This document shows positions 18,060-19,552 of a stretch of DNA of 21,966 nt, in pieces (within the stretch, counting starts at the first letter, position 1; each line of letters begins with the position of its first letter). This DNA is from a virus. Position numbers and translations under genes: made by a program. The notes beneath the pieces are model-generated. The model was not told the DNA's origin. It worked only from the letters and a program-made list of their open reading frames with translations, and did not search any database. The stretch is from positions 1-21,966 of the IMG/VR virus record IMGVR_UViG_3300009788_000324, one strand, 5' to 3'.

Positions 18060-18302
18060 TCAGCGCACCCAGCCCACATACGCACTACCAAGCGGCGCCG
18101 CATCACGCTCCGCTGCATCCAGCTGCCGTACCAACCCCCAAGTGCCGCGCGCCTGCAGCTCATCGTAATTATTAAAATTTTTCACCAGCGGCAAGCCAAA
18201 CACAATGCTCACCTCAATGCCGCCGTAAACCGCACCAATTCGCCACAAAACATCACTCCACTCCGAAGGCCCCAGCCAGTAAATGTGGAAATCATTAACC
18301 AT
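18060..18302 (-). CDS. Hypothetical protein, 80 aa
   Basis: The sequence GTGATGG carries an in-frame GTG and an ATG. The ATG at 18300-18302 is preferred because it overlaps the upstream TGA as TGATG. The protein is MVNDFHIYWLGPSEWSDVLW, a moderately hydrophobic middle (GAVYGGIEVSIVFGLPLV), then a polar tail ending AYVGWVR. The hydrophobic stretch is short and contains polar residues, so a membrane segment is doubtful. No family is recognised. Confidence 0.68.
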   Translation of the reverse strand: MVNDFHIYWLGPSEWSDVLWRIGAVYGGIEVSIVFGLPLVKNFNNYDELQARGTWGLVRQLDAAERDAAPLGSAYVGWVR

Positions 18303-18616
18303 CACGCCTTACCCTCCGCCCGCCGCTTGCGCATTAAATCCCGCTGATAACGCTTGCGACCCTCCAAAACCTTGACGCGCTCCTCGAGACTCTCAATTCG
18401 AGCCAAGGCCTCCCGAATCAACTCACGATCAGTCAACGTACTGACTACACCCTCGACAGGCTCCCCCGGCTCTACAAAATGAACCGCTCCCGCCTTGGCA
18501 GGCCTGTTGGTTTTCTTGCGGGCTGCCCTTTTCGGGCGAGGCTCCTGCTTCACGCCACACTCGCCGTAGTGGCGCTTGCCGCAAGAGGGGAAATTCTGAC
18601 ATTTGGGTGCGTCCAT
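18302..18616 (-). CDS. Putative zinc-binding, coiled-coil protein heading the small-gene run, 104 aa
   Basis: The N-terminus has closely spaced metal ligands, C-x5-C-x3-H-x3-C (Cys6, Cys12, His16, Cys20), a zinc-knuckle-like arrangement. A Lys/Arg/Pro-rich linker follows (EPRPKRAARKKTNRPAK), and residues about 62-100 form a basic coiled coil (TDRELIREALARIESLEERVKVLEGRKRYQRDLMRKRRAEGKA). Together these suggest nucleic-acid binding. An in-frame TAA sits 3 nt upstream of the ATG, so the start is fixed, yet no Shine-Dalgarno sequence precedes it. Instead the ATG is directly downstream of two GTTAGGCTAAC palindromes. It is the first gene after the possible terminator downstream of terS. The metal motif is seen; zinc binding is inferred. 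Confidence 0.75.
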   Translation of the reverse strand: MDAPKCQNFPSCGKRHYGECGVKQEPRPKRAARKKTNRPAKAGAVHFVEPGEPVEGVVSTLTDRELIREALARIESLEERVKVLEGRKRYQRDLMRKRRAEGKA

Positions 18617-18669
18617 ACGTTAGGCTAACATAAATCCGTTAGGCTAACGAATAAAACCTTTCGTATGGA
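18612..18669. promoter_or_regulatory. Nested operator-like palindromes at head of the small-gene/terL/virion operon
   Basis: Two copies of the perfect palindrome GTTAG-G-CTAAC (18619-18629 and 18638-18648; the second extends to CGTTAGGCTAACG) are spaced 19 bp centre to centre. Both sit between an outer 8-bp inverted repeat, TCCATACG (18612-18619) and CGTATGGA (18662-18669). The inner edge is at the start codon of the 104-aa gene. On the minus strand, TTTCCA-18 bp-TTTTAT is a weak sigma70 candidate that would start transcription within the palindromes. A repressor or activator site controlling the operon is the simplest reading. Confidence 0.65.
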
Positions 18670-18677
18670 TTTTTTGG

Positions 18678-18700
18678 AAAAACTGCGGGGGATCGCCCCC
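18678..18700 (-). terminator. Possible intrinsic terminator after terS
   Basis: On the minus strand, GGGGG-CGAT-CCCCC forms a 5-bp all-GC stem with a tetraloop. It is followed by GCAG and then TTTTT, about 60 bp downstream of the terS stop. The 4-nt gap before the T-run weakens the case. If active, it separates terS from the small-gene operon, consistent with the operator-like array just beyond it. Confidence 0.4.
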
Positions 18701-18743
18701 ACCACCAGGCTGAATCGCGCGCTCAGGGCCCCCCGCCGTGGAT

Positions 18744-18757
18744 ATAGGGACCCCTAT
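18744..18757. repeat. Palindrome ATAGGG-AC-CCCTAT just after terS
   Basis: Perfect 6-bp arms with a 2-bp centre, 4 bp beyond the terS stop codon, within the 145-bp non-coding interval 18617-18761. As RNA the loop is too short for a full hairpin, so a DNA-binding site is more likely. Possible role in packaging or regulation; unproven. Confidence 0.35.
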
Positions 18758-18761
18758 CTTC

Positions 18762-19457
18762 TCATTGTTCATGGTCGTCAAGGGGGGGTGACATTGTCAC
18801 CCCTTGTACAATGTCGGCAGGGCTCATGCTTGCATGGTTTACGGGCTGTAGCCCAGTGGTGGCGGGCGTTTCAGGTATCGACATGTGCACCGCTTCACCC
18901 TCAATGGTCACGCCTGCCGCCTGATCTTCAAGCATGAAGGTCGCAAGCCTGCGCATTCTCTCCCGGTCTGACAGCTGCACCGTATGCGTGTGGCCAATCT
19001 CGCCGCCATGCTCGTGCTGCACCTTCTCGCCGTAGATCAGCGGCGCACCCTTGCTCATCATAAACCGCCGAGTGTCTACCCGGAGCCGGTCCCGCTGGAT
19101 GTTCTCATGGTCTACAGCCTCATAGGTACGCCCTTTCGGGTCTGTTTTGGTAACTGTGTCCATGGTGGAGTCGTCAGCAATCGCGATGCACTCGTCACCC
19201 CATGAATGGGCTTGGTCGATGCGCGCCAGTGCGTAATCTGCGCTAAAGCTGGAATTCTCACGCCGCCACCTGTGAACCGTTGCAGGCACTGGTAGCCCGG
19301 GCGTCCTACAGATTGCGGACAGTGTTTTGCCACCTGCCACCTCGCCACAAATGAACGCCGCCAGTGACTCCGAGAACAGCGACGGACGGCCGATAACTGG
19401 CTTGGCTTTGGGTTCGGTGCCTGTAGCTTGCAGGGCTTGGCTTTCAGGCTTGCTCAT
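18762..19457 (-). CDS. terS: Terminase small subunit, Sf6-type, 231 aa
   Basis: Binds phage DNA at the packaging site and recruits TerL. Residues about 24-95 read RPSLFSESLAAFICGEVAGGKTLSAICRTPGLPVPATVHRWRREN followed by FSADYALARIDQAHSWGDECIAIADD. This is the helix-turn-helix domain (about 43-70) plus the linking helices of the Sf6-like family. Residues 96-160 continue the oligomerisation core (DRLRVDTRRFMMSKGAPLIYGEKVQHEHGG), and the tail is acidic and Pro-rich. The frame is open to 19538, but the extra 27 residues are unlike the family, so the ATG at 19455-19457 is chosen; its ribosome site (GAG) is weak. TerL lies six genes downstream rather than adjacent. Confidence 0.9.
   Translation of the reverse strand: MSKPESQALQATGTEPKAKPVIGRPSLFSESLAAFICGEVAGGKTLSAICRTPGLPVPATVHRWRRENSSFSADYALARIDQAHSWGDECIAIADDSTMDTVTKTDPKGRTYEAVDHENIQRDRLRVDTRRFMMSKGAPLIYGEKVQHEHGGEIGHTHTVQLSDRERMRRLATFMLEDQAAGVTIEGEAVHMSIPETPATTGLQPVNHASMSPADIVQGVTMSPPLDDHEQ
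18785..18814 (-). promoter_or_regulatory. Alternative hairpins in the 3' end of terS
   Basis: GGGGTGACA-T-TGTCACCCC (18785-18803) is a perfect 19-bp palindrome that folds in RNA with an 8-bp stem. Overlapping it, ACATTGT (18791-18797) and ACAATGT (18808-18814) are perfect 7-bp inverted repeats 10 bp apart. The two stems share a strand and cannot coexist, an attenuator-like layout inside the last codons of terS. As DNA it may instead be a TerS-binding site. Structures are seen; role inferred. Confidence 0.5.
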
Positions 19458-19523
19458 AGTCTCAGCTTGCAGCGCTTGGTTATGGTTTGAGGGCCTCAGT
19501 TTACACACCTGCCAAAATAGTGC

Positions 19524-19552
19524 TTGACACCGGACCATTGGTCCTGTATATC
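19524..19552 (+). promoter_or_regulatory. Sigma70-type early promoter
   Basis: TTGACA (19524-19529, perfect -35), a 17-bp spacer, then TATATC (19547-19552, 4 of 6 to TATAAT) face the J-domain gene. Transcription would start near 19559, leaving a leader of about 90 nt that begins with a 6-bp stem-loop (19562-19579). It is the best host-type promoter in the window. It implies that the plus-strand genes are read by host RNA polymerase, as early genes. Confidence 0.8.
19532..19544. promoter_or_regulatory. Operator-like palindrome within the early promoter spacer
   Basis: GGACCA-T-TGGTCC is a perfect 13-bp palindrome lying entirely between the -35 and -10 elements. A dimeric protein bound there would block polymerase. 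Nothing in the window encodes an obvious repressor. It differs in sequence from the GTTAGGCTAAC pair at 18612-18669, so a second regulator would be implied. Confidence 0.6.

Follow-up and report, generated by a model that had tools for sequence, protein, structure and literature searches.

In the telomere phage PY54, cI and cro are expressed from leaderless mRNAs whose 5' end is the AUG, and a palindromic repressor operator lies close by (PMC4488713). Phage lambda cI is a leaderless gene of the same kind, and these phage genes encode helix-turn-helix (HTH) repressors in the divergent immunity region of temperate phages. Leaderless bacterial genes, among them those of M. tuberculosis (PMC3898074), have no Shine-Dalgarno (SD) site and are marked by a TANNNT element about 12 bp upstream of the start codon (PMC3160421). 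Few such mRNAs are known from enterobacteria, 18 to 83 per species (cited in PMC3898074), and the phage studied here probably has gammaproteobacterial hosts.

The subject of this study is p104, a gene beside the terminase genes of a phage, with paired palindromes directly before its ATG. Like the PY54 and lambda genes, p104, leaderless by prediction, has palindromic putative operators nearby; like the bacterial genes, it combines an appropriately placed TAnnnT with a missing SD site. Unlike the phage repressors, its product has no HTH, the gene adjoins terminase genes, and the sampled bacterial genomes yielded no copy of it; unlike the bacterial genes, its candidate -10 element is buried in paired half-site operators. 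By analogy, the p104 region may work like the leaderless PY54 genes, but on the features tested it is not a member of that family. In the reading we favor, whose chances we judge to be evenly balanced, p104 and its control region form a self-contained cassette: a sigma70-type promoter lying within operators drives the gene as a leaderless mRNA, and p104 itself is the likeliest binder. What the comparisons described below bring out goes beyond one pair of palindromes: a conserved layout of putative operators with a predicted leaderless promoter, linked to an undescribed gene family that adjoins terminase genes.

The p104 locus and its palindromic repeats

The window, meaning the whole stretch of DNA analyzed, is IMG/VR record IMGVR_UViG_3300009788_000324, positions 1 to 21,966, linear, 21,966 bp. 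Its relevant features are as follows.

16885-15182, minus strand: large terminase gene
18302..18616, minus strand: p104, a 104-aa protein with an N-terminal CCHC zinc-knuckle motif and a C-terminal basic helix
18612..18619, no strand: outer inverted repeat arm TCCATACG, overlapping the first repeat and including the start codon (ATG complement at 18614-18616)
18618..18629, minus strand: putative start-proximal operator copy (minus strand GTTAGCCTAACG), whose palindrome ends 2 nt before the p104 ATG; exact repeat, with a cognate repeat at the same place in relatives
18622..18627, minus strand: candidate -10 element TAGCCT, -11 to -6 from the ATG
18637..18648, minus strand: putative second operator copy, 19 bp further upstream; exact repeat
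18645..18650, minus strand: candidate -35 element TCGTTA, 17 bp upstream of the -10
18662..18669, no strand: other outer inverted repeat arm, CGTATGGA
18668..18757, minus strand: conserved G-rich block in the gap from the small terminase gene to p104
18762..19538, minus strand: Sf6-like terminase small subunit, upstream neighbor of p104 (phrog_1482, 2.5e-34; PF20901, 4.9e-29)

A sequence-only reading of this DNA had placed two palindromes 19 bp apart in front of p104, and both are present: GTTAGGCTAAC occurs exactly at 18619-18629 and 18638-18648. The start-to-start distance of 19 bp stands, and amounts to 1.8 helical turns instead of the nearly two turns then given. Each 11-mer is a 10/11 palindrome about an odd central base, and the full direct repeat is the 12-bp CGTTAGGCTAAC. 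A search for further copies across the whole 21,966-bp record found none besides the two. Direct 11-mer pairs within 60 bp are common by chance (103 of 300 Markov simulations); pairs that are also palindromic at 10/11 or better occurred in 1 of 300 simulated windows. Exact GTTAGGCTAAC pairs are also present in the viral contigs L003, L005, and L006, and were rejected as instances of the same element since their contexts are unrelated. Two unrelated viral contigs hold long arrays of GTTAGTGTTTACTAAC-like and CGTTAG/CTAACG-like units, at the start of L087 and at about 7290-7660 of L003.

On the minus strand, the small terminase gene is followed by a 145-bp gap, p104, several small genes, the large terminase gene, a probable portal gene, and later genes. 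The description of p104 as the first gene of an operon is therefore not strictly correct, given the small terminase gene on that strand, 145 bp upstream. Both neighbors of p104 run in its direction, and a divergent regulator pair sharing operators is absent from the window. A type II toxin-antitoxin operon would have a conserved toxin gene beside the autoregulated one; the gene downstream of p104 has no match in the PHROG library, and a consistent partner across loci was not seen.

The sequence-only reading also nested the palindromes inside an outer 8-bp inverted repeat as part of a switch. The arms exist, and the chance of such a pair flanking a random block is about 0.7%, but the proposed role is unsupported, as neither the inverted repeat nor a folded structure is conserved. 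One arm is part of a distinct block that is conserved (CCA.AATTTCCACGCG in relatives), the other takes in the start codon, and their pairing is not kept. The G-rich block is likewise separate from the putative operators: its motif, GGGTGCCTTATAT...GGGGGGCCGCTGAGCGCG...CCCACAGTTTTTCC, lies 3' of the small terminase gene in the same gap at about 25 related loci, in relatives with and without p104, and is a candidate cos/pac packaging site.

Repeats and p104 in related and unrelated phages

Scanning with the large terminase protein identified 64 loci, about a dozen of which have p104 homologs; further p104 loci were added by scans with p104 alignments and repeat patterns. Cognate repeats precede the ATG at all 15 family p104 loci found, of which one is truncated at the edge of its contig; two unrelated phages have them as well. 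Absence of the palindromes from close relatives had been named in advance as evidence against a switch. That check gives a mixed result: L004 alone retains the exact GTTAGGCTAAC, yet all the other loci have a repeat of the same type, built from GTTAR/GTAAR half-sites and stopping 2-3 nt before the ATG. The family repeats fall into three classes. Class A, GTTARTGTTTAC, is found at L039, L042, L043, L045, L047, L048, L050, L054, L056, L068, and L091/L113; class B, TGTAAACYTAC, at L037 and L053; and class C, GTTAGCCTAAC, in the window and L004. The units differ in length (12, 10, and 11 bp for classes A, B, and C), and the palindrome center nonetheless stays about 8 nt before the ATG, because the gap between the last copy and the ATG is 2 nt in classes A and C and 3 nt in class B. 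Loci have two or three copies (L048 being truncated where its contig stops), and the usual spacing, shared by most relatives, is 19 bp. At most class A loci, a variable spacer (e.g., AGCATTT, AGAAATT, AGCCCAT, AGCCCGT) separates repeats that do not change. Extra or differently spaced copies at L045, L068, and L113 count against the favored cassette.

Near-complete relatives, 43-57 kb in size, have the exact motifs at the p104 locus and nowhere else. Terminase relatives without p104 have a different gene at this place, and repeats were not found there. In the large-terminase tree, the repeat classes are dispersed among relatives without repeats, which indicates that p104 and its repeats move as a cassette. 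Pairs of GTAAACTTAC and GTTAATGTTTAC in L087, L089, L090, L095-L098, and L101-L104 were set aside; they lie mostly inside genes or other arrays and not before p104 homologs.

A family profile search of 7,038 open frames yielded four further p104 homologs (E 1e-11 to 1e-7), all of which adjoin terminase genes of other families. Two of them carry repeats and have no SD site. In L145, GTTAAAC occurs three times, in both orientations, before p104; in L115, GCTAAC-N7-GTTAGC-N6-GCTAAC-N7-GTTAAC-TGA-ATG leads into the gene, which is divergent from a putative small terminase gene, an arrangement seen only there. In the other two, L112 and L151, the repeats are absent, p104 begins before the small terminase gene has ended, and the SD energies are -7.8 and -12.1 kcal/mol. 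The same gene family thus occurs in two alternative architectures, SD-led without repeats and repeat-bearing without SD.

The DtxR/IdeR iron box has the consensus TTAGGTTAGSCTAACCTAA. Its core is identical to GTTAGGCTAAC, and the two window copies match the consensus at 16/19 and 13/19 positions, but the class A and B repeats of the relatives (GTTAGTGTTTAC, GTAAACTTAC) do not fit it. With no link to DtxR and likely hosts outside the Actinobacteria, the locus was rejected as an iron-box site.

A relative of this phage family forms a contig of its own in a metagenome-assembled genome labeled Acidithiobacillales (L117 and L120; LJVB01000001.1, 54,650 bp). Its large terminase gene is split across the contig ends, and the contig is probably a circularly assembled phage, which hints at gammaproteobacterial hosts for the family.

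Missing Shine-Dalgarno sites and a candidate leaderless promoter

That p104 lacks an SD site, as the sequence-only reading had it, is borne out by a duplex energy of +0.6 kcal/mol with the 16S tail; the background has a median of -3.3, and many of the window's other genes attain -6 to -12 kcal/mol. Across the repeat-bearing p104 homologs, the energies range from 0.8 to -3.8 kcal/mol, as compared to the strong values of the two without repeats. TAnnnT stands at -12 or -11 in 10/10 repeat-bearing upstream regions scored, at -11 in the window and at -12 in relatives. Counted by lineage (window, class A, class B, L115, and L145), the figure is 5/5, these lineages being not fully independent because classes A, B, and C share one phage family. 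The element falls at these positions in 2.2% of random upstream positions, and 0 of 20,000 shuffles matched the five lineages.

From these data we infer that the p104 mRNA is quite likely leaderless or nearly so. The candidate promoter in the window is a weak match, with 3/6 positions in the -10, inside the proximal repeat, and 3/6 in the -35, which overlaps the second. Across the lineages, -35-like hexamers lie at 16-18 bp from the -10; most relatives have TTGTTA, TTGTAA, or TTGATT (4/6) at 16-17 bp, often supplied by the upstream repeat. The best match is in L145, TTGATT-17-TAAACT with its -10 at -12, and the L115 counterpart is TACGTT at -12. Two observations count against this promoter: a good -35 was not found within the 16-18 bp range in L068 and L113, and in the window a rival hexamer, TATGTT at -16, outscores TAGCCT and would shift the RNA start to a few bases ahead of the ATG. 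The earlier proposal of a tight DNA switch with a leaderless mRNA is thus partly supported, by comparative evidence from the ATG-abutting repeats, the lack of an SD site, and the positioned TAnnnT.

In the mechanism proposed, a sigma70-type promoter would start transcription at, or a few bases from, the A of the p104 ATG; the resulting leaderless mRNA would not need an SD site. As the -10 lies within the start-proximal copy and the -35 overlaps the next, protein dimers occupying each pair of GTTAR/GTAAR half-sites would occlude the two promoter boxes, turning the gene off. If p104 were its own binder, the result would be negative feedback, possibly with dimerization through the C-terminal coiled coil and DNA contact through the basic helix or the knuckle.

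The p104 protein and the identity of the binder

The p104 family is conserved from Met1. AlphaFold2 predicts a helix at residues 63-103 (pLDDT about 95), with low confidence for the remainder. The window protein has no Pfam or PHROG match, no family member has an HTH match, and no relative above noise was found among solved structures (PDB). The sequence and the model together suggest a CCHC-knuckle and basic coiled-coil protein without a recognized DNA-binding fold. Homologs were not found among annotated phages. None was confirmed in bacteria by a pattern scan of 84,980 genomes or by a profile search of 754 sampled genomes of two classes, both weak negatives run with no positive control. The libraries and literature searched hold no description of the family or of its two-architecture terminase cassette.

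p104 is the sole protein cluster that is present in the window and in all four repeat-bearing genomes compared and absent from three without repeats. If the repeats are operators, we hold it about equally probable that p104 regulates itself or does not. The same leaderless promoter-operator could instead be bound by another repressor or activator, a family-wide phage protein or a host protein, with p104 merely the target. Such a binder would sit well with the lack of a recognized DNA-binding domain in p104, and proteins common to genomes with and without repeats are compatible with the cluster comparison. We nevertheless regard it as rather unlikely, since the operator sequence shifts between close relatives (classes A, B, and C), related half-sites recur at p104 in unrelated phages, and the motif is confined to the p104 locus in near-complete genomes. 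That the repeats are instead binding sites of the terminase small subunit, within a cos/pac packaging site, is suggested by their position in the gap adjoining its gene, next to the G-rich block. Relatives that have the orthologous small terminase and the G-rich block and lack p104 have no repeats, however; the putative small terminase gene of L115 is of another family, yet the repeats are still at the p104 start; and the position of the repeats is locked to the ATG. These points make a packaging site improbable.

CCHC knuckles often bind single-stranded RNA or DNA. The p104 knuckle might accordingly bind the repeats in a 5' leader of its own mRNA, made from an upstream transcription start, and the window leader would fold well (z -2.75). 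This control at the RNA level is very improbable: the folding is not conserved (z -0.07 in L047 and -0.68 in L115), the SD site expected of a leadered mRNA is absent, and L115 and L145 carry half-sites in either orientation, a sign that double-stranded DNA is recognized rather than RNA. Functionless chance palindromes before a weakly translated or misannotated gene are hardly credible. The exact pairs in the three unrelated contigs speak for chance, but the recurrence of one design at one position, throughout the family and in two unrelated phages, together with conservation of the protein from its first residue, refutes it in the main.

It is possible, though doubtful, that p104 is the founder of a class of phage autoregulators in which a CCHC zinc knuckle and a basic coiled coil read paired GTTAR/GTAAR half-sites, carried as a gene-plus-operator cassette beside the terminase genes of unrelated phages and alternating between leaderless self-controlled and SD-led, small-terminase-coupled forms. 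If the favored cassette is real, an undescribed protein family joins phage gene control, and one gene offers a natural paired comparison, leaderless with operators versus SD-led without them, that serves the question of when phages choose leaderless translation. It would also suggest that a packaging-associated protein controls its expression by feedback and is not produced solely with the late operon.

The window and L004 are 99.5% identical over 6.5 kb, and 17 of their 22 differences, some synonymous, fall within 63 bp (18320-18382) that encode the p104 C-terminal helix. A short recombination tract is the likelier source of this variable segment than a diversity-generating retroelement, which was rejected because the changes are partly synonymous and no template was found. 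The helices of the two proteins differ at 5 residues and the operators are identical, which counts against the favored reading. The knuckle type (CX2C or CX5C) does not track repeat class. In the C-terminal helix, 9/9 aligned class A cases have four residues (KRSE) inserted ahead of the YM..YM motif, and 3/3 class B and C cases (the window and L004 counted once) lack them; this tracking of the 12-bp class A repeats is suggestive, though kinship confounds it.
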